A DNA stretch of 27,269 bases from a virus, in IMG/VR virus record IMGVR_UViG_3300009002_000033, positions 1-27,269 of that record, one strand, 5' to 3'. A program made the translations under genes and the position numbers. Under the pieces are notes generated by a model. It made no database searches, was not told the DNA's origin, and was given only the letters and a program-made list of their open reading frames with translations. Below, piece after piece: positions 2,163-17,173 of the stretch; the stretch's first letter is position 1, and each line of letters starts with the position of its first letter.

Positions 2163-2170
2163 TATTTATA
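2163..2170 (-). promoter_or_regulatory. T4-type late promoter for genes 25-6
   Basis: Read on the minus strand this is TATAAATA, a perfect match to the T4 late-promoter -10 element recognised by gp55. It ends 22 bases before the gp25 ATG, which predicts a start near 2157 and a leader of about 17 bases containing AGAGAAG. The element overlaps the stop codon (2166-2168) of the upstream spike gene. Confidence 0.8.
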
Positions 2171-4616
2171 CGATTTTTGCGAAGGAAACATTAAAACCAT
2201 TACTCCAAGTTCCAGCATCATCTGCACCCGCTTGTCTCCATTCACTCTCATCATAGTGAATAAATGTTGAATAGCCACCAATACCGGGGCGAACACCACG
2301 TGCCTTTGCGTTTCTGACCAGTATCCTAATGTAACGTTGATACAAGATCTTATTCTGTGAAGGATTGATACGAACCCCGTCAAGCAGTAAGAAGTGATCT
2401 GCCGCTTCACCAACAGGATGATTATTAGTCCCACTATCTCTTTTCGCTCTACCACCATTTGATGTTATCTGTGCTGTGTAACCTTCACCAAGCTCTCTCA
2501 CTGCTTCAGCAATGGAGTCTACTATTCTTTGATCAGGCCAGTGTATTCTATCATTTCCTCTAGCGTGGGTAACAACATTGTCAGTTGGTGGTATAGCAGA
2601 TTTATTTCTTGCACGTTCCTCTAAAGTCTCTGTGGTTTCTAATAGACATTCGATAAACTCACCTTCAGATAACAACTGTCTATTATATTCAGTAGATATT
2701 TTTCTTCTGAATGTGCCTGTCCACTGATCATCAATGTCTGGCATGACTATGATTAGTCTTGAACTCAATACAACCTGATCACCTACACACTCTAAAGTGT
2801 CATAAGATAGGATCATCTCATCGAAGAAACTAACGTCCTTTAAGTATTCTGCAATATCAAATAAGTCTAGGTTATTTGGCTTACCGCTTTTATCGATTGC
2901 TTTATAGACTACGGCTTTTCCTTTAGCCTTTAGATCATTTATACTATCAGGTGTTATTATTTCCGAAGCACTTGGTCTATAGACGCCCTCAGATACTACT
3001 AGGTTGACACCTCTAAATCTTTCATTGTTAGTCTGTATTTTTTTAAGTATAAGTGAATGAGCATACAAGTTCTTAGCAATATCTCTTTTCACTGAAAGAG
3101 ACTTTATAAACTTAAGGTTTGTAGGGTCATCAGATCCTAAAAACTTGGCTATAGTAATATTGTCAGACAACTTAGTCTTGATTGTAATATCACCTTGTCT
3201 TAAAGGATTATACTTATCTTCAGGTACAATACTTAGAGAGGATATTTTGGTTATAAATGTTGCGGAAATCTCTGGTGAGTAAATGTTTGCTGGCATATTA
3301 CTTAACACAGGAGTAGATTCCTGTCTTACCGTTCTACCAGTTCTCTCTGGTAACGGGTTGTTATAATCAGAACAAATGATATCTTCTTTTAATAGTTGCC
3401 CCACAAACTGAGCATTACCAGAGTTAACAACATCTCTTAACTTTGATCTGGCCTGTCCTGTTGTCATATAACCATTAGACACGCCACTATAGTCATTGGA
3501 CTTATCAATGAAGTTCTTAATGTAGTCACCCTTGTCAATGATTACCTTACGAATACCGCCAGCGGCCTTTAACAAATATGTAAGAACCTTGGTTGAGGTT
3601 GGCGTTGTGATAGAAGGAGTTGCCGTATTTGTAATAGCCGCACCAGCCGACCCCGTAGCATTTTCAGCATAAGGCTGAGATCTAGTTGATCTTGATGTTT
3701 CAGCAACGCCATTCAAATCTCCATGAAATGTAGGAGCCTCAACACCTTGATCAAAGATAGCACCATTACCCACAAAGTTCATTGCAGTGCCGCCTATAAC
3801 CCCTGTGCCGCCTTGTAGTGTCATGTTGTTAGCAGAGGCAGTGAAGTTATCGGTAGACATATTAAGATAGTCTTCTGATGTAACGTCCATCGTTCCACTT
3901 GAAAACAAACCAACGTTGCCATTGATGTTATAATCCAGATTACCTTTGACGTTGTGTTGATGACCACCCAAGAATAAATCTGTAACCAAGCCAGTAGAGT
4001 ATGTTGTTATCGGTCCTGTTACAGATGACTGTGATCCATTACCTACGTGCTTTTCTTCAGACCCTCTTATAGTTTCAACCTTATTACCGTTCACTTTAAC
4101 ATTATAGTCTAGGCAATCAACATTGAACTCTCCGACAACTTTAATGTTTAGGTTTCCCTTATAGACTAGTTGTGCGTCTCCCTCAACGATAACTTCATTA
4201 GAGCCGCCAATGACTTCTACTTTTCTTTTCTTGGTGCTAATAAGAATACTTCCATCAGGAGTAAGTTCAATACCACTACCTTCTGAATGCTTGATAAGAA
4301 TACGTTCATTACCATCAGTGTCATCTACTTCCCATATATGACCCTTTTCTGATTTAGATACTTGGTTCTTACCATAAACAGAAGAAACTTTATTACCCGT
4401 TTCCAACTCAACGTCATCATACTGAGCGAAAAACTCTAGGTCATTTCTGGCAACGCCTCTTGCTTCCTTGGAAATATTGCTTGAAAAGAAGTAGTCTGTC
4501 TCTGGATACTGACCAGTAGGATCTTCTGGACGATTTTTAGATTTACTTGAAACTCTAGCATCTATAAATTCCTGAGGAATTCCTGAAAGGTTATTTGAAT
4601 ATTTACCATACGCCAT
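2166..4616 (-). CDS. gp5-like baseplate spike with C-terminal M15-type peptidase domain
   Basis: This 816-residue protein begins with about 110 residues of low similarity to anything I recognise. Residues of roughly 110-310 are repetitive, rich in V, G and N with an eight-residue rhythm (VEVIGGSNEVIVEG, LNIKVVGEFNV, DYNINGNVGLF). That is the pattern of the gp5C/VgrG triple-stranded beta-helix that punctures the outer membrane. The C-terminus (about 680-816) has a zinc-peptidase signature of the M15 (D-Ala-D-Ala carboxypeptidase/endolysin) type: NNHPVGEAAD with H733 and D740, then GIGGYSTFIHYD with H787. The H-x6-D spacing and the final FxHxD fit that family. The N-terminal OB fold and lysozyme of T4 gp5 are absent here and lie in the gene at 6111. 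A role in piercing and trimming the host wall is inferred. The middle part (about 340-680) is unassigned. Confidence 0.75.
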   Translation of the reverse strand: MAYGKYSNNLSGIPQEFIDARVSSKSKNRPEDPTGQYPETDYFFSSNISKEARGVARNDLEFFAQYDDVELETGNKVSSVYGKNQVSKSEKGHIWEVDDTDGNERILIKHSEGSGIELTPDGSILISTKKRKVEVIGGSNEVIVEGDAQLVYKGNLNIKVVGEFNVDCLDYNVKVNGNKVETIRGSEEKHVGNGSQSSVTGPITTYSTGLVTDLFLGGHQHNVKGNLDYNINGNVGLFSSGTMDVTSEDYLNMSTDNFTASANNMTLQGGTGVIGGTAMNFVGNGAIFDQGVEAPTFHGDLNGVAETSRSTRSQPYAENATGSAGAAITNTATPSITTPTSTKVLTYLLKAAGGIRKVIIDKGDYIKNFIDKSNDYSGVSNGYMTTGQARSKLRDVVNSGNAQFVGQLLKEDIICSDYNNPLPERTGRTVRQESTPVLSNMPANIYSPEISATFITKISSLSIVPEDKYNPLRQGDITIKTKLSDNITIAKFLGSDDPTNLKFIKSLSVKRDIAKNLYAHSLILKKIQTNNERFRGVNLVVSEGVYRPSASEIITPDSINDLKAKGKAVVYKAIDKSGKPNNLDLFDIAEYLKDVSFFDEMILSYDTLECVGDQVVLSSRLIIVMPDIDDQWTGTFRRKISTEYNRQLLSEGEFIECLLETTETLEERARNKSAIPPTDNVVTHARGNDRIHWPDQRIVDSIAEAVRELGEGYTAQITSNGGRAKRDSGTNNHPVGEAADHFLLLDGVRINPSQNKILYQRYIRILVRNAKARGVRPGIGGYSTFIHYDESEWRQAGADDAGTWSNGFNVSFAKIV

Positions 4617-4617
4617 A

Positions 4618-6111
4618 TTAGTTTCCTACATATCCATCTACCAGTTGTTTTTGCGTCAAAGGTGCAGTCGTATTGGGATTATAATCTTTTATATTCTCTT
4701 TACCAAATACATTCTTTACATTAAGAGATACGTTCCACCAAGGAGATTCAGTGGTTCTTATAATATCATGAATCCCAAATACCTGAACCCCCGGCTTGAC
4801 ATTAAATATGCTCTGAAACATCTTTCGAATAGTATTCATCTGTGCAGTACTAGCCATATAGTTTGGTTCTTCAAGAGCAATCAATATACTTCTCTCTGAA
4901 TGATCTGGCACACCACTATAGTAAAATCCTGTTCCTTTTATATCTACTGGTCTTCCTCTGAAAAGCACACCAGCATAGTTGATGTAATAGTGTGGCTCGA
5001 ACCCTTGATCATATTTATCAACGTATAACTGATGCCATTCTTCAACTGTCGTTGTGCTACCATCGACTGTGGCAAAGGCTTCTACTATAACTTCAGTAAC
5101 TTCTCTGGTCATATTAGCAAGTTCAGTTTCTAGTTCACTTATGTCTGCTATAGGATCAAATATCTTTGAGTTAATATCTGTAGTTGCTTCACGCCACACA
5201 TTGTTGTAGTCATCGGTTCTTTTACTTGGTATATGCACTGAAACTGCGGCTGGTTCTAAAACTGTGGATGCTCTATTGTCTATTTTCAATATAACATTTT
5301 TTAAATCAGCATCAGACTTATCAGAATATTTTTTTAATATTTTAACAGCATTATCAATATTACCATTATTTTTTGATGTGACAATATCTTTTACATCTTC
5401 AGGTGGAACGTTATATGTAACGTCACCCTTTTTTGCTACTGAGTTTAAAAGAACTTCAGTTGATTGAAAAGTTGTCTCTACCAAGTTTTCTATTGTGCCA
5501 TTAAATCCAGAAGAAGAGTTATTCAGTACTTTAGATCTAGAGTTGTTTTGATTTGAAATGGCATTGATTACTTTATTACTTGTGCCTTTTTTAGTATTTA
5601 ATACGTCCCCTAACACGTTGTCCAAAATATCATCTCTGGCAAGTTCTGTTGATACATTATTACCGACAATAGTTTTTACCTCACTAGATGAAGAGGTTGT
5701 TGTGGATTTAACAACTTCAGCCAAGGCTTCTGGGAACGGAGCACTAACAGCCACGTCAAGAAAACCATCCGAAGACAATCGACTATCTCCTGTGATTGTA
5801 GTCAAATCTGTCTCATCAGATCCCACATCTTTTATTAGATCAGACGATTTAGCACTTGGATCTAATTTGACAACACCTAAAGACTTTTGTATCTGATCTG
5901 GCACAGATCCTTCGACACCAGACACGATATCTCTATCGGCACTGGCTAAAGATTGAAACCCACCAGAGGTTGTATTATCAGGTTTATACTTAAAACTAAC
6001 AGAAGTATCATAAATTTCTCTCAGTTCTCTTGTAGCACTACTAGAAGATTGCTGGCCTAATAGTCTACTTAAAGCATTCATACCATCTTGTAATAAATCT
6101 TTAGAGGACAT
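4618..6111 (-). CDS. Baseplate hub protein with degenerate N-acetylmuramoyl-L-alanine amidase fold
   Basis: This 497-residue protein lies between the OB-lysozyme and spike genes, with a TAATG overlap upstream and one base between it and the spike start. Residues 1-335 are rich in S, T, D and K, look extended or coiled, and match nothing I know. Residues of about 338-470 align by eye with T7 lysozyme/Amidase_2 proteins: VIVEAFAT against IFVHCSAT, EEWHQLY against the QWH helix, PHYYINYAGVLFRGRP against GYHFIIKRDGTVEAGR, STAQMNTIRKMFQSIF against TPAQMQSLRSLL, and FGIHDI against the GHxD loop. The zinc ligands are missing: the first His is E344, the second is I447 and no Cys follows. The catalytic Tyr position is P373. 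It is probably a non-catalytic, wall-binding or structural module. The fold is an inference from alignment; its hub location is inferred from context. Confidence 0.6.
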   Translation of the reverse strand: MSSKDLLQDGMNALSRLLGQQSSSSATRELREIYDTSVSFKYKPDNTTSGGFQSLASADRDIVSGVEGSVPDQIQKSLGVVKLDPSAKSSDLIKDVGSDETDLTTITGDSRLSSDGFLDVAVSAPFPEALAEVVKSTTTSSSSEVKTIVGNNVSTELARDDILDNVLGDVLNTKKGTSNKVINAISNQNNSRSKVLNNSSSGFNGTIENLVETTFQSTEVLLNSVAKKGDVTYNVPPEDVKDIVTSKNNGNIDNAVKILKKYSDKSDADLKNVILKIDNRASTVLEPAAVSVHIPSKRTDDYNNVWREATTDINSKIFDPIADISELETELANMTREVTEVIVEAFATVDGSTTTVEEWHQLYVDKYDQGFEPHYYINYAGVLFRGRPVDIKGTGFYYSGVPDHSERSILIALEEPNYMASTAQMNTIRKMFQSIFNVKPGVQVFGIHDIIRTTESPWWNVSLNVKNVFGKENIKDYNPNTTAPLTQKQLVDGYVGN

Positions 6112-7049
6112 TATCTAGCTCCTGACGATAAGTTAGAAGATAAAGAAGCTATCAAAGTTGCTTTGTATTCATCATAAGCCGCTCTAGCCGCCAACGGTCT
6201 TGATCTACCACTATTATTACTATAGTTTGCTGGATCTGCTCTTTCAAATATGTGAAAGAAGTGGAATGTGGAATTTCTATCATCCTTATCTCCATCAAAG
6301 TTAGTTATATTCATCTCATTACTTAAATGATTCCAACAATCATGTGGTACGCCTGTCTTCATATCATATATTAAAAACTTTAACTGTAGAAAAAGATCGT
6401 AGGGATCTTCGTTTAAGTCAGAAGCATATGCCTCAACTCTTTGCCATCTACCCACTGCCGTGTTCCATTGAGCAATACCTCTAGAGTCTTCTGAGCCAGC
6501 CGAAACAGCTTTAGGATCAAAGTTGCTTTCTATTTCTAGGTTACCGCAAACACCAGCCGCTGATTTTATTGGAAGGCCGTTACTAATCAAAAAGTCCATG
6601 ACCAAAACTCTTAACTGTCTTATTTCAGCACTACCATTTTCATACATCTGACGTTGTTGTTCAGATACTGTGACACCTTCTTTACCAATGTTTCTAGAAT
6701 CAAGAAGATTTACTCTTCCAGATTCAGCCGCCGCTTTTACTTGAGAAGAAGAGGGCTGTTCTATATGACTCATAGAACCAATTATCATAGGGTTTTGAGA
6801 AGCTTTACCGTCCAAGAAGATCCCAAATACTAAAGCATTATTCTTCAACTGTGGTATTCTACCTACACCAGATACTCCACCCTCTGTAGTAGGTACGACT
6901 GTTTCAGCCCAAGGTAGAAACTTATCTTCAACTTCTTGAGAGTGTACACCAAATATTCTTACTTGAAATCTACCAGCCTGTTGAGGATCATTACCATTAA
7001 TAACTCTCGCAACAAACCACCTATTATTATCGCCATAGTATTCATTCAT
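6111..7049 (-). CDS. Baseplate hub OB-fold and tail lysozyme protein (gp5 N-terminal half)
   Basis: I start this gene at the ATG at 7049 (MNEYYGDNN), not at an in-frame ATG 21 bases upstream. The 7049 start has GGAG eight bases before it, and it overlaps the upstream TGA by eight bases. The protein then has 312 residues. Residues 8-95 form a gp5/VgrG-type OB domain (WFVARVINGNDPQQAGRFQV, then FGVH and FLPWAE). Residues of about 140-300 match phage tail lysozymes: GVCGNLEIESNFDP with the probable catalytic E174, followed by SRGIAQW and a large helical lobe. T4 gp5 carries the OB fold, lysozyme and spike in one chain that is cleaved during maturation. Here the first two are a separate gene, and the 497-residue gene lies between it and the spike. 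It presumably degrades peptidoglycan locally during DNA entry. Confidence 0.8.
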   Translation of the reverse strand: MNEYYGDNNRWFVARVINGNDPQQAGRFQVRIFGVHSQEVEDKFLPWAETVVPTTEGGVSGVGRIPQLKNNALVFGIFLDGKASQNPMIIGSMSHIEQPSSSQVKAAAESGRVNLLDSRNIGKEGVTVSEQQRQMYENGSAEIRQLRVLVMDFLISNGLPIKSAAGVCGNLEIESNFDPKAVSAGSEDSRGIAQWNTAVGRWQRVEAYASDLNEDPYDLFLQLKFLIYDMKTGVPHDCWNHLSNEMNITNFDGDKDDRNSTFHFFHIFERADPANYSNNSGRSRPLAARAAYDEYKATLIASLSSNLSSGAR

Positions 7050-8397
7050 TAGAAATACTCCGACCAGCAAGTTTACACAGATCTAAAGAAACGTTATGTC
7101 TTCCACCAGCAACATCTAAACAATGGCGTTTAGCCATTATTATGAATCGTCCAGATCTCTTCTCATCAATTTTTCCTCCAACAGCATAGGTTATATCATT
7201 TTTATATACTTCCATGGATATTTGATGCCCAACACAAGCTGCAATATTGCTCGTAGAAAACAATAACCCCGGAACATTTATGTTATATTTGTTTTTTAGC
7301 AAATGTGCAAAAACACTTCTTTTAGTCAATTTTAAAGTTTCACTTCCTTCGTAGGATTCTTGATCAAATCCATTAGCATCATCATAGGGATTGGTGACTA
7401 CTCTAGTATGTATCTTTGAATTAAAATCAGTTATTTTGGATTGATCTATTTTTTTAGGATCTGATATAAACTTACTATCAAAGGCAATAAAGTTTTGATC
7501 TTTTGGAAGTAATTCTTCTTTTATTAACTTACTGAAATGTCTGTTCATATCCTGATGATATTGAATGTGATTTCCCGTAGTTGCATTAATAGATTCGTAC
7601 TGAGACCCCATTCCACCTTCTAGTGCTAGGTTTAAAGTATTCTCTAAGAGACCTGATTCGAAATGTGTTATGTTCGTAGCTTGAGATTCTATGTCATTTT
7701 TATTGACGTTTTCTTGATCGTAAACGAATGGTTTCATATGATTAAAGGATTGAGTATTAATAATAGTTTCAAGATCAGTCAAGTAAAAGTTATCATCTAC
7801 TATAGATGAGTAAAAGAAAAATGGATAGCCATTATCTGTAGACATTTTAGACAATACAGTTTTAATAGCAGTTAGTGGATCTTGATAAGGAACAATGTAT
7901 CTAAAGGTATTTTGTACAGATTTAACTTTGCTTTCAATAATAAGTTCTCTACCAAGTTTATCTTTTACAATATTTTCTATTATTTGCTCACCAGTTCCTG
8001 TGTATGCTTTACTAAACTTGTTTAAGTCGTTATAGAACTTTATATCTTCAACCAAAGATAGTGATACCATTGAAGAGTAATCATTAGACTTTACACTATC
8101 AGTAATTTCCTCTACAACAAAAGTTTTAGTTATTATATTCGAAGATTGATCTGGAGTTACAAAATCTAATACTATTCTTTCAGTTCCATTAATGTCTGCT
8201 ACTCTGTAGATATCTTGATCGTCTTGAAGAATAATATTTCCACTTAAAAACCCATTTGCTAAGTTTTCATATATATTCATTTCAACAACAATGCCAGATC
8301 CAGAGTTTCTGGAAATTATTAATGGCTCACTGAATCGTTCAGACTCTATTCTAATACTAATTAACTTTAGTTGTTCTGCTGATACTATATCTGACAT
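7042..8397 (-). CDS. Putative baseplate hub protein, gp27-like
   Basis: This 451-residue protein has a beta-rich N-terminus (LKLISIRIESERFSEPLI, then IYENLANGFLSGNIIL and FVVEEITD). Such an N-terminus is typical of gp27/gpD-like hub proteins, which form the trimeric ring joining the tail tube to the spike. The middle (SKMSTDNGYPFFFYSS, FYLTDLETII) resembles the second tube-like domain of the same family. T4 gp27 is 391 residues. The gene lies directly upstream of the OB-lysozyme gene, which fits gp27-gp5 complex formation, and one base separates its ATG from the gp53 stop. Sequence identity to T4 gp27 is not something I can confirm by eye, so the call rests on architecture, length and order. 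Confidence 0.6.
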   Translation of the reverse strand: MSDIVSAEQLKLISIRIESERFSEPLIISRNSGSGIVVEMNIYENLANGFLSGNIILQDDQDIYRVADINGTERIVLDFVTPDQSSNIITKTFVVEEITDSVKSNDYSSMVSLSLVEDIKFYNDLNKFSKAYTGTGEQIIENIVKDKLGRELIIESKVKSVQNTFRYIVPYQDPLTAIKTVLSKMSTDNGYPFFFYSSIVDDNFYLTDLETIINTQSFNHMKPFVYDQENVNKNDIESQATNITHFESGLLENTLNLALEGGMGSQYESINATTGNHIQYHQDMNRHFSKLIKEELLPKDQNFIAFDSKFISDPKKIDQSKITDFNSKIHTRVVTNPYDDANGFDQESYEGSETLKLTKRSVFAHLLKNKYNINVPGLLFSTSNIAACVGHQISMEVYKNDITYAVGGKIDEKRSGRFIIMAKRHCLDVAGGRHNVSLDLCKLAGRSISNE

Positions 8398-12423: not shown

Positions 12424-13131
12424 ATGGCACTACCTAAACTAAATGATAAACCAAAGTATGAACTTGTTATACCTTCGACACAACAAAAAGTTAGATTTAG
12501 ACCTTATCTTGTAAGAGAAGAAAAGGTTTTAATGATGGCAATGGAAAGTGAAGATCAGACACAAATGTTTGAAGCCATTGCTGATACCATTGAAGCCTGT
12601 GTTGATGATGAAATAAACAAAACGGCACTGACTAGTTTTGATGTAGAATATATGTTTGTTAAGATTAGATCAAAGTCTGTAGGAGAAAATATAAAACTCA
12701 CACCTAAGTGTGGAGAATGTGAAGCAGAAAACGAGGTAGAGATCCCACTTGACGATATAACTATAACTTTACCTGTTACAGATTTGATGATTAAGTTAAC
12801 TGATGATATAAGCATTAAGATGAAGTATCCATCGTATGTTGAAATATTAGATAAAGAAATTTTGAATGCGGAGTCTGCTACAAAACAAACATTTGGTATG
12901 ATTTTAAAATGTATTGAATCTGTTATGACTGAAGATGAGAATATGATGTTTAAAGAAGAAACAAATAAATCTCAAATGGATTTTATTGAGTCTTTAAGTT
13001 CTACGCAGTTTGATGAGATACGAAAGTTTATTGAAGGAATACCGCAAGTAAGTTATGATGCATCATATGAATGTGTTGGATGTAAACATAATAACGAAGT
13101 CATGTTGAGAGGCATGAATGATTTTTTTTAG
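12424..13131 (+). CDS. 26: gp26-like baseplate protein / tape-measure chaperone (zero-frame product)
   Basis: This 235-residue protein matches the T4 baseplate gp26 family: KYELVIPSTQQKVRFRPYLVREEKVLMMAMES at the start is its hallmark. A zinc ribbon is formed by C96-x2-C99 and C217-x2-C220. ATTGAGATG gives a weak ribosome site. The last codons are GAT TTT TTT TAG, and the eight-T run lies exactly where a -1 slip would bypass the stop and enter the extension at 13131-13322. In other long-tailed phages the gene before the tape measure makes a short (G) and a frameshifted long (GT) chaperone, which coat the tape measure and recruit tube subunits. The G/GT role for this protein is inference from arrangement. 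Confidence 0.85.
   Translation: MALPKLNDKPKYELVIPSTQQKVRFRPYLVREEKVLMMAMESEDQTQMFEAIADTIEACVDDEINKTALTSFDVEYMFVKIRSKSVGENIKLTPKCGECEAENEVEIPLDDITITLPVTDLMIKLTDDISIKMKYPSYVEILDKEILNAESATKQTFGMILKCIESVMTEDENMMFKEETNKSQMDFIESLSSTQFDEIRKFIEGIPQVSYDASYECVGCKHNNEVMLRGMNDFF
13122..13129 (+). promoter_or_regulatory. Candidate -1 frameshift (slippery) site, run of eight T
   Basis: Zero-frame codons are GAT TTT TTT TAG. A tandem -1 slip on T TTT TTT keeps Phe pairing at both tRNA positions and continues TTA GTA TCT into an open frame of 63 codons. Transcriptional slippage on eight T is an alternative mechanism. A weak AT-only hairpin (13154-13160 with 13170-13176) lies 24 bases downstream. Confidence 0.75.
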
Positions 13132-13322
13132 TATCTCTTTCTCATGATAACCTAGTTAACTATTATCAAGTTAACTTTCAGTTAATGCAGAACCATAATT
13201 ATTCGTTAGAAGACGTTGAAAATATGATGCCATGGGAAAGAGAAATATATTTAGCTATGTTAATTGAACAAATAAAAGAACAACAAAGAGAAGCTGAAAG
13301 GCAAAGGATGACTAATGGCTGA
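13131..13322 (+). CDS. -1 frame extension of gp26 (GT-like chaperone tail)
   Basis: From the slip at the T run, the -1 frame reads VSLSHDNLVNYYQVNFQLMQ, then NHNYSLEDVENMMPWEREIYLAMLIEQIKEQQREAERQRM, and stops with TGA at 13320-13322, eight bases inside the tape-measure gene. The motif SLEDVENMMPWEREIYLAML followed by a charged helix is what I expect of the C-terminal half of tail-assembly chaperones (a PWER-type motif ahead of the tape measure). The 183 bases between genes 26 and 29 are thus coding, not spacer. The frame has no ATG near its beginning; the first (QLMQ) comes 20 codons in and lacks a ribosome site, which favours translation as a gp26 fusion of about 298 residues. Independent expression as a separate small protein (in T4 gp51 is separate) is the alternative. 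Confidence 0.8.
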   Translation, partial: VSLSHDNLVNYYQVNFQLMQNHNYSLEDVENMMPWEREIYLAMLIEQIKEQQREAERQRMTNG

Positions 13323-14883
13323 TACTAATTTCAATGATGTTGTAAAAGCAATAAAAGAGCAAAATTCATCACAGTTGGATACTACTAATTCTATAAATGC
13401 ACTTAATGATACTATGCGAGAACAGTTTAAACTTCAGGCTCGTGGTAAAAAAGATGAAGAAGAAGATAGAAAAGAAAGTAAAAAGGCTGGTAGGCAAAGC
13501 AAAAGTGGAAGTAGCTCTGGAGTATTAGGATCATTTAAAGATGGTGCTGGATTTGGTGCAGGGTTTGGTATAGCTGGTATGTTAGGTAAAATGGCTGGAG
13601 CCGCTGGAAGACTTATAAAGCCTATAGTAATGGCTGGACGTTTGTTACTAGGACCAGTTGGCTTGACTTTAATGGCGGCTTATGTTCTATTTAAAAACAT
13701 TGCAGAAAACGAAAACTTTAAAGCTACTCTCGCCGTTCTTTCAGAAACATGGACAAAGTTAAAAACAGCATTCACTGATTTAATAAGTGTATTTTCGGCG
13801 GCTAGTGAAAATGAGGGGCTAAACACACTCATAGAAAATGTAAAGAATTTTATCCCAAGCTTTATAAAAAATGTGCAAGATATTGTACTAGATATAGCGG
13901 CAACACTTGCTGAATCTATATCAGGAGTAATAGACACGATCAGAGCGTTAATAGAAGGAGATTTTAAAGGTGCTTTTGACTCAATCTGGAATGTTATTAA
14001 AGGTATCGGAGATTTTATAACAAGAACAGTAGATAATATTATACAAATGTTTTTACCGACAACAGAAGATGGTTTTATTTCCAAGAAGTTTTTTGAGGTT
14101 TTTGATATGGTTGCAAACATATTTGATAATGTTAAAGCCAAATTAATAGAAGGTGTAACACTTGTAGGAGATAATATCTTATTGGCTTGGGAAGCAGTCA
14201 CTAATTTCTTTTCAGATGAATCAATTCGTGGAGCCTTTGCCTATGTTAAGGATGGTATTTGGAATAAGATCACATCTTTTACAACAATGTTAGTGGATGG
14301 TTTCAAAAATGCTTTTTCACTATTAACATTTGAAAATCTTATTGCTGGAGTATTAGGTGCTGGAAAAGGTTTATCAGATATATTATGGTTCCCTATTAAT
14401 ACTGTTATTGATTGGATAAGTAAAAAGTTTGGATGGAGTGATGAAGATGCACCTAAGTTTAATTTAGCTGATAAAATAGGTGAATGGGTCACAGCGTTTG
14501 GAAAATGGTTTGGAAGCTTCTTACCTGATATAGGACAAATAGCCAGAGACTTAACTGCAAAATTATTAGGGTTTTTACCTGATTGGGTGGTTAAAGGAAT
14601 GATTAAAATGAATGGCGGCGATCCTGACTTATTTACAGTAAAGGATGGTGCGATTAATAAAAAAATCGTAGTTGAGACCCCGCCTCGTAATCCTTACGCA
14701 GAATTAATGGGAGATCCAAGATTTAAAGGCATAGGAACTTCAAACTATGTTGTGGATACTTCGACAAACTCTGGAGACAATATCTCTATAACAAATGTAG
14801 CACCGCAAATGATACCTTCTATGTCGGCAGTAGATCAAAAGATTTTGAACCAACAAAATATAAGAGCTTTCGGTTTTTACTAA
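13315..14883 (+). CDS. 29: Tape-measure protein, gp29-like
   Basis: This 522-residue protein follows the chaperone gene directly, as tape measures do. The N-terminus (1-75) is polar and highly charged (GKKDEEEDRKESKKAGRQ). Residues of about 82-130 form a Gly/Ala-rich hydrophobic stretch (GAGFGAGFGIAGMLGKMAG, then VMAGRLLLGPVGLTLMAAYV) able to insert in membrane on ejection. The rest is long amphipathic helices, ending with a beta-like tail (NISITNVAPQMIPS). T4 gp29 has 590 residues, so the tail should be somewhat shorter than T4's. The gene overlaps the frameshift ORF by eight bases, and its ribosome site is AAAGG in the end of that ORF. It ends at a hairpin shared with the convergent gp32 gene. 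Confidence 0.9.
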   Translation: MADTNFNDVVKAIKEQNSSQLDTTNSINALNDTMREQFKLQARGKKDEEEDRKESKKAGRQSKSGSSSGVLGSFKDGAGFGAGFGIAGMLGKMAGAAGRLIKPIVMAGRLLLGPVGLTLMAAYVLFKNIAENENFKATLAVLSETWTKLKTAFTDLISVFSAASENEGLNTLIENVKNFIPSFIKNVQDIVLDIAATLAESISGVIDTIRALIEGDFKGAFDSIWNVIKGIGDFITRTVDNIIQMFLPTTEDGFISKKFFEVFDMVANIFDNVKAKLIEGVTLVGDNILLAWEAVTNFFSDESIRGAFAYVKDGIWNKITSFTTMLVDGFKNAFSLLTFENLIAGVLGAGKGLSDILWFPINTVIDWISKKFGWSDEDAPKFNLADKIGEWVTAFGKWFGSFLPDIGQIARDLTAKLLGFLPDWVVKGMIKMNGGDPDLFTVKDGAINKKIVVETPPRNPYAELMGDPRFKGIGTSNYVVDTSTNSGDNISITNVAPQMIPSMSAVDQKILNQQNIRAFGFY

Positions 14884-16486: not shown

Positions 16487-16701
16487 TAGTCCACAGGAAG
16501 CATAGCTTGCTTTGGTAAATAGTTTAGCACCATTGCTTCTGCTTCTAGCTTATCTTTTATTGTTGGAGAGATGAACTTACGCACATCTTCCAGTTCAACT
16601 GCAATCTCATCGCAAACGTGTATAATTGCATCCATGTAAGATGATTTATGATTTTTTACTGTTTTTTCTATTAGCACCGTGAACTTTGTTTTTGTCAACA
16701 T
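16486..16701 (-). CDS. 33: Late-transcription co-activator gp33
   Basis: This is a protein of about 71 residues: MLTKTKFTVLIEKTVKNHKS, then SYMDAIIHVCDEIAVELEDV, ISPTIKDKLEAEAMVLNYLP and a terminal AMLPVD. The SYMDAI..CDE..VE..DV..ISP..K.K.EAEA..LN.LPK pattern is what I recall for gp33 of marine T4-like phages. gp33 bridges RNA polymerase and the sliding clamp and, with gp55, activates TATAAATA late promoters such as those in this window. Its position next to gp32 matches T4 (32-59-33). Start choice: the frame is open to 16728 (two more ATGs), but 16701 begins at the conserved part and shortens the overlap with the upstream gene, which is still 56 bases. T4 gp33 has 112 residues. Confidence 0.65.
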   Translation of the reverse strand: MLTKTKFTVLIEKTVKNHKSSYMDAIIHVCDEIAVELEDVRKFISPTIKDKLEAEAMVLNYLPKQAMLPVD

Positions 16702-17173
16702 ATCTTCTTGTGGTTGCATTATCTTCATCTTCCATTTCTATGGTGTAAGTACCTATATCGGGATACCATATCCCTACTGTTCTTTTAGGAGTTCCATCAG
16801 CATAGTATGCCATGCCTACACACTTGTAGCTTACCAAGTGTTGTCTCTCAGATCCCCATCTACTATCCATGTAGATTCCAGTTCTAAGATAGTTCTGAAG
16901 GTTAGCCAAGTAGACCTCTTCGACTGCATATGCGGATTTCTCTTTTACGTCTTTAGAGTTTTTCCATTTCCTTATAGACTGCATTTTAGCTTTAGTATTA
17001 TTAATCCATCCTCTTACTCGTGGTGGAGCAAAGGGATCTGTATCAGGTAGGTTTCTGATCGATTGATGAACCGAAAGTTGTTTAGAAGGAGCTTTCGCTT
17101 CTCTAGCCTTTGCTAGACGTTCACGCAACTCTTCACGTTGCTCTTCCGAAAGTTGTCTCTTTTTTCTAGCCAT
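16646..17173 (-). CDS. Conserved-looking basic protein of unknown function
   Basis: This protein of 175 residues is strongly basic at both ends: MARKKRQLSEEQREELRERL at the start and NRKNSKKS at the end. The middle has a helical segment VRGWINNTKAKMQSIRKWKN, then VEEVYLANLQNYLRTGIYMDSRWG. A short beta-rich part (VGMAYYADGTPKRTVGIWYPDIGTYT) near residues 118-145 looks like a small compact domain. Related proteins next to gp33 in marine T4-like phages are, to my memory, of unknown function. Position suggests replication or transcription, perhaps in place of gp59, to which I see no similarity. GGAG precedes the ATG at good distance, and the gene has its own early promoter at 17194-17222. Confidence 0.75.
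   Translation of the reverse strand: MARKKRQLSEEQREELRERLAKAREAKAPSKQLSVHQSIRNLPDTDPFAPPRVRGWINNTKAKMQSIRKWKNSKDVKEKSAYAVEEVYLANLQNYLRTGIYMDSRWGSERQHLVSYKCVGMAYYADGTPKRTVGIWYPDIGTYTIEMEDEDNATTRRYVDKNKVHGANRKNSKKS

Follow-up and report, generated by a model that had tools for sequence, protein, structure and literature searches.

A conserved poly-T -1 frameshift at the end of gene 26 very probably yields short and long G/GT-type tail assembly chaperones

The slip site from which phage lambda makes its tail chaperones gpG and gpGT is G GGA AAG. A 2016 review describes the G-T frameshift as a conserved feature of long-tailed phages "except T4" (PMC5009743). For T4, both gp26 and gp51 appear in the list of hub assembly chaperones; assembly needs gp51, which the particle lacks (PMC3004832), and this fits chaperones that leave before the virion is completed. 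The chaperone genes of T4-like phages have been identified by Vladimirov, Gautam & Davidson (Virology 2022), who propose a mechanism other than frameshifting; a later paper credits the same work with poly-T slip signals in T4-like TAC-N genes (PMC12846349). That paper also describes an arrangement in Vandenendeviridae (Pseudomonas phage Adele) that resembles the locus reported here, as a T run ends TAC-N, a -1 extension usually annotated as a separate gene follows and the tape-measure gene lies downstream, and that differs from it in its GTTTTT motif and in belonging to other phage families (PMC12846349).

The window, that is the whole stretch of DNA analysed, is a viral contig of 27,269 bases from a marine T4-like phage (IMGVR_UViG_3300009002_000033), whose gene 26 is very probably a further case of this already known kind of system. 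Its relevant features are the following:

12424..13131, + strand: putative gp26-type short chaperone (TAC-N, 235 aa) in frame 0, assigned by PF12322, phrog_150, the AF2 model and the match to HK97 2ob9
13107..13112, + strand: GAGAGG, a Shine-Dalgarno-like tract and possible stimulator, 9 nt upstream of the heptamer
13122..13128, + strand: slippery heptamer T TTT TTT within the T8 at 13122-13129, in a register common to 336/350 relatives
13128..13322, + strand: -1 frame extension of 64 residues plus TGA, a probable gp51 C-terminal domain or T-like domain by phrog_634, hhalign and dN/dS
13129..13131, + strand: frame-0 stop TAG, abutting the slip site
13139..13192, + strand: weak predicted stem-loop region and possible stimulator, where a 60-nt segment reaches z = -2.2 at best against synonymous shuffles
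13315..14883, + strand: tape-measure-like protein of 522 aa, matching phrog_58 (tail length tape measure protein, E=1.8e-12) and overlapping the extension by 8 nt

The 3' end of gene 26 reads GAT TTT TTT TAG, and the slip site, frame relation and coordinates given in the original prediction agree with the sequence. The -1 frame opens at 13122, right after a TGA at 13119-13121, and closes at the TGA at 13320-13322, eight bases into the ATG-initiated ORF 13315-14883 as had been claimed. The predicted length of 63 codons counts from the GTA at 13131 and needs a small correction, as the product gains 64 residues from the TTA at 13128-13130 onwards (codons 13128-13319, LVSLSHDNLVNYYQVNFQLMQNHNYSLEDVENMMPWEREIYLAMLIEQIKEQQREAERQRMTNG). 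The first ATG of this frame lies at 13185, at codon 21, in line with the claim that none stands near the start of the extension. Upstream of gene 26, ORF 11690-12409 matches the tail tube family phrog_45 (E=4.2e-31), so that gene 26 and its extension sit between tail tube and tape-measure genes, as G/GT chaperones do. Of the 25 ORFs surveyed in the window, only gene 26 has both an in-register X XXY YYZ heptamer within 10 codons of its end and a long open -1 frame that is distinct from the following gene, and the arrangement is more than chance. On the - strand, ORF 16646-17173 carries an A AAA AAC heptamer within its last ten codons, and the -1 frame there is open for 89 nt only.

Family searches place both parts of the product among T4 proteins. 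The gene 26 protein matches PF12322 (T4_baseplate, E=1.1e-59) and phrog_150 (baseplate hub, E=2.9e-62), and the extension matches phrog_634, the family of the T4 gp51 "hub assembly catalyst" (E=1.2e-25), as well as the C-terminal end of phrog_150 (E=2e-9). The extension, which had been taken for an unknown charged helix, is thus the C-terminal domain of T4 gp51. An AlphaFold2 model of the gene 26 protein (mean pLDDT 92.7) has as its top PDB matches by VIA the uncharacterised 3fgx (Z 8.3), the HK97 tail assembly chaperone 2ob9 (Z 7.4) and YqbN 3klu (Z 6.8), followed by matches at Z 4.2 and then near 2.3; these three alignments are of moderate Z and cover the N-terminal part only, at residues about 1-95. 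In the model, this N-terminal part matches the TAC-N fold as in HK97 gp13. A PDB sequence search with the profiles of gp26 and of the extension returned no match, and Foldseek with the model of a T4-type gp51 (pLDDT 84, the extension portion forming three helices) returned nothing significant. Compared with lambda gpG/gpGT, the window protein has a larger N domain (235 aa, PF12322) that includes an additional C-terminal part, is without sequence similarity to any solved chaperone in the PDB profile search, and is encoded with a U-rich slip site in place of the lambda heptamer.

The slip site is widely conserved. Relatives were found in IMG/VR with peptide patterns of gp26 that did not cover the T run, and named phages were added; at 350 loci the gene end could be read. 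In 336 of them a run of at least six T stands in the same register (the first T being a third codon position) with a gp51-like domain in the -1 frame, so that the T run and the frame relation are kept; grouped at 70% identity, these 336 frameshift-type loci form 112 clusters, and the heptamer and the -1 domain occur in 112/112. The heptamer is T TTT TTC at 217 loci, T TTT TTT at 105, T TTT TTG at 11 and T TTT TTA at 3, and in 325/336 the distance from its start to the frame-0 stop is 7 or 10 nt. The residue before the Phe pair varies among Asp, Ser, Asn, Thr, Ala and Arg, yet the third base of its codon is T in 112/112 clusters, which under in-gene codon usage (T there about 30 to 75%) has a log10 P of about -21.7, a value not corrected for phylogeny. 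Hosts of phages with the slip site include Prochlorococcus, Synechococcus, Pelagibacter, Caulobacter, Sinorhizobium, Rhizobium and Agrobacterium, and further such phages infect Vibrio (Schizotequatrovirus), Aeromonas, Acidovorax and Nitratidesulfovibrio. The 14 loci without a T run are explained as T4-type gp26 or gp51 genes (11) and Ackermannviridae-type genes (3). The latter (L102, L104 and L105) keep the -1 extension, and their T6 is replaced by GTT TTC, ATT TTC or CTT TTC, which are not standard X XXY YYZ sites.

Candidate stimulators were evaluated on both sides of the heptamer. A Shine-Dalgarno tetramer occurs at the place of the upstream tract in 85% of the 112 clusters, as against 7% in the background but 82% under a synonymous null; its frequency is therefore largely explained by a conserved L-[EKR]-G peptide that dictates it, and apart from a modest extra synonymous signal the tract was rejected as a selected stimulator. 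Downstream, the folding energy of relatives, set against synonymous shuffles, is lowest in the 60 nt that start at +14 from the first base of the heptamer, where z averages -1.45 and 34% of values are below -2; at +60 and -70 the mean is near 0, and elsewhere in gp26 it is about -0.3 to -0.4. In the P-SSM2-type clade (L112-L151) a stem of 11-12 bp starts 5 nt after the heptamer, and it covaries through a synonymous Ala wobble and an amino-acid-changing partner (Glu/Ala/Val), with GCT paired with GAG, GCG with GCG and GCA with GTG. One inner pair of the stem is formed in 67% versus 39% expected among 236 unselected sequences from all lineages; one covariation set had been selected for pairing, which inflates its percentages. 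At the corresponding place other clades form stems unrelated to this one, and the window's own lineage has no convincing downstream stem-loop in the predicted folds. A trade-off between a long T run and a stem-loop is not claimed: the association is strong over all unique loci (p about 6e-8) but weak over the 70% clusters (5/38 vs 14/67).

The coding signal bears on an alternative that underlies several GenBank annotations, namely that the extension is a small gene of its own (gp51) that is started independently. Indeed, a short separate "gp51" CDS is listed in the records of P-SSM2, S-RSM4, Mosig and C48C1, and in records of relatives the extension is either annotated as its own gene or omitted. 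Over the 45 bases that follow the heptamer, most substitutions hit third positions of the -1 frame. The Nei-Gojobori-type dN/dS, computed over 2172 non-independent pairs, is about 0.19 for the -1 frame, as against 1.06 for frame 0 and 1.53 for the +1 frame; judged by this substitution pattern, the 45 bases are protein-coding in the -1 frame only. Conserved coding thus starts at the slip site, which lies upstream of the annotated starts in most records with a separate "gp51". The relatives share no conserved start position for the extension, their first in-frame ATG scattering from codon 3 to 47, and no Shine-Dalgarno signal precedes it (mean -0.2 kcal/mol, vs -5.6 before gp26 starts). Moreover, both domains lie in one frame in T4-type gp51. 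Because coding in the -1 frame begins at the slip and the first ATGs scatter with no ribosome site, the extension is not regarded as an independent gene, and the separate-gene reading is rejected as highly improbable. The inspected records of cyanophages, pelagiphages and rhizobial phages therefore miss a conserved recoding event or split it into two genes.

The same relatives weigh on two further explanations, both of which concern the T run itself. The -1 product might come from RNA polymerase slippage on the T8, through mRNAs with extra or missing U, rather than from ribosomes. Bacterial RNA polymerases start to slip on runs of about the length of T8, and the window's lineage has no clear downstream stem-loop, which would agree with such an origin. 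A T6 followed by C is too short for typical transcriptional slippage, yet 217/336 homologous loci have just this sequence and keep the register, the stop position and the -1 domain, and the P-SSM2-type clade with T6C has the covarying stem-loop 5 nt after the heptamer that is typical of ribosomal frameshifting, all of which makes a transcriptional origin improbable. Alternatively, since the T8 is a homopolymer in a metagenomic contig, an assembly indel could have broken a single in-frame ORF; the same frame relation is found in 336 loci, including cultured and independently sequenced phages, most of them with T6C, and these relatives have already refuted an indel, whose probability is negligible.

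Ribosomal frameshifting is thus the preferred reading. The conserved slip site, purifying selection in the -1 frame only, the absence of an own start, the adjacency to the tape-measure gene, the gp51 homology and the predicted HK97-chaperone-like fold together support the G/GT-type tape-measure chaperone of the original prediction, and it is very probable that ribosomes slip by -1 on the T TTT TTT of gene 26 to give a short and a long tail assembly chaperone. Slip-site conservation, -1 coding, homologies, predicted fold and gene order are computed results, and the slippage itself, the ratio of the products and their contacts with other proteins are what we infer. Most ribosomes would halt at the TAG at 13129 and release the short form of 235 aa, and a minority would slip back one base, with the P-site and A-site Phe tRNAs re-pairing on UUU UUU, and would read the -1 frame to 13319, giving a long form of roughly 299 aa with the gp51-type C-terminal domain. 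A point against this reading is that U UUU UUU did not rank with the most slippery heptamers in E. coli tests, A AAA AAG being reported as much more shift-prone (PMC5009743). Slippage at a low rate would, as in other G/GT systems, leave the short form in excess. By analogy with lambda gpG/gpGT, the N domain may coat the tape-measure protein, whose gene follows immediately, and the extension may recruit the tail tube subunit, and both forms would leave before the virion is complete (PMC5009743).

T4 appears to reach the same two forms by another route. The PF12322 family and the gp51 C-terminal domain of T4 are also present in the window gene; the difference is that T4 encodes the forms in two genes, which lie on opposite strands and lack a slip run, whereas in the window both come from one gene. 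PF12322 is found in both T4 proteins (3.5e-54 for T4-type gp51, 1.9e-63 for gp26). T4-type gp26 aligns with the window protein as far as the Phe pair, where its codons are TTC TTT or similar, with no T run, and in T4-type gp51 residues 7-202 align to gp26 (E=5.9e-13) and the directly adjoining residues 203-245 align to the extension in one frame (hhalign, E=1.1e-6). As gp26 ends at the slip equivalent and gp51 spans the short form plus the extension, T4 has a separate gene for each of them, the short and the long form, and these alignments indicate that it makes the two chaperone forms from two paralogous genes. The link between gp26 and the general tail chaperones is accordingly supported; its supposed novelty is not, as it was already published by Vladimirov, Gautam & Davidson (Virology 2022). 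In a tree, T4 gp26 and gp51 each form one group on a long branch, and the deep branch order is without resolution. In the T4 record (L106, 1708-1995), a product gp26' from an internal in-frame start is annotated inside gene 26.

The breadth of the frameshift suggests that it is ancestral. The balance tips slightly towards the poly-T -1 frameshift being the ancestral and near-universal T4-like route to both forms, with a 3' stem-loop in some clades and perhaps an internal Shine-Dalgarno sequence, and lost only by Tevenvirinae in favour of the paralogues 26 and 51. If true, this would qualify the published view that T4-like phages use a non-frameshift mechanism. What is possibly new is the breadth of the frameshift at survey scale and the covarying post-slip stem-loops in one clade. 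Frameshift phages and T4 also offer natural pairs for asking why the short-to-long ratio matters.

Elsewhere in the window, on the - strand, two ORFs match different parts of the hub/lysozyme family phrog_430 (6111-7070 at model positions 14-110 and 2166-4616 at 329-614), with the unmatched ORF 4618-6111 between them. From these matches, a gp5-type hub protein looks to be split over several genes at 2166-7070.
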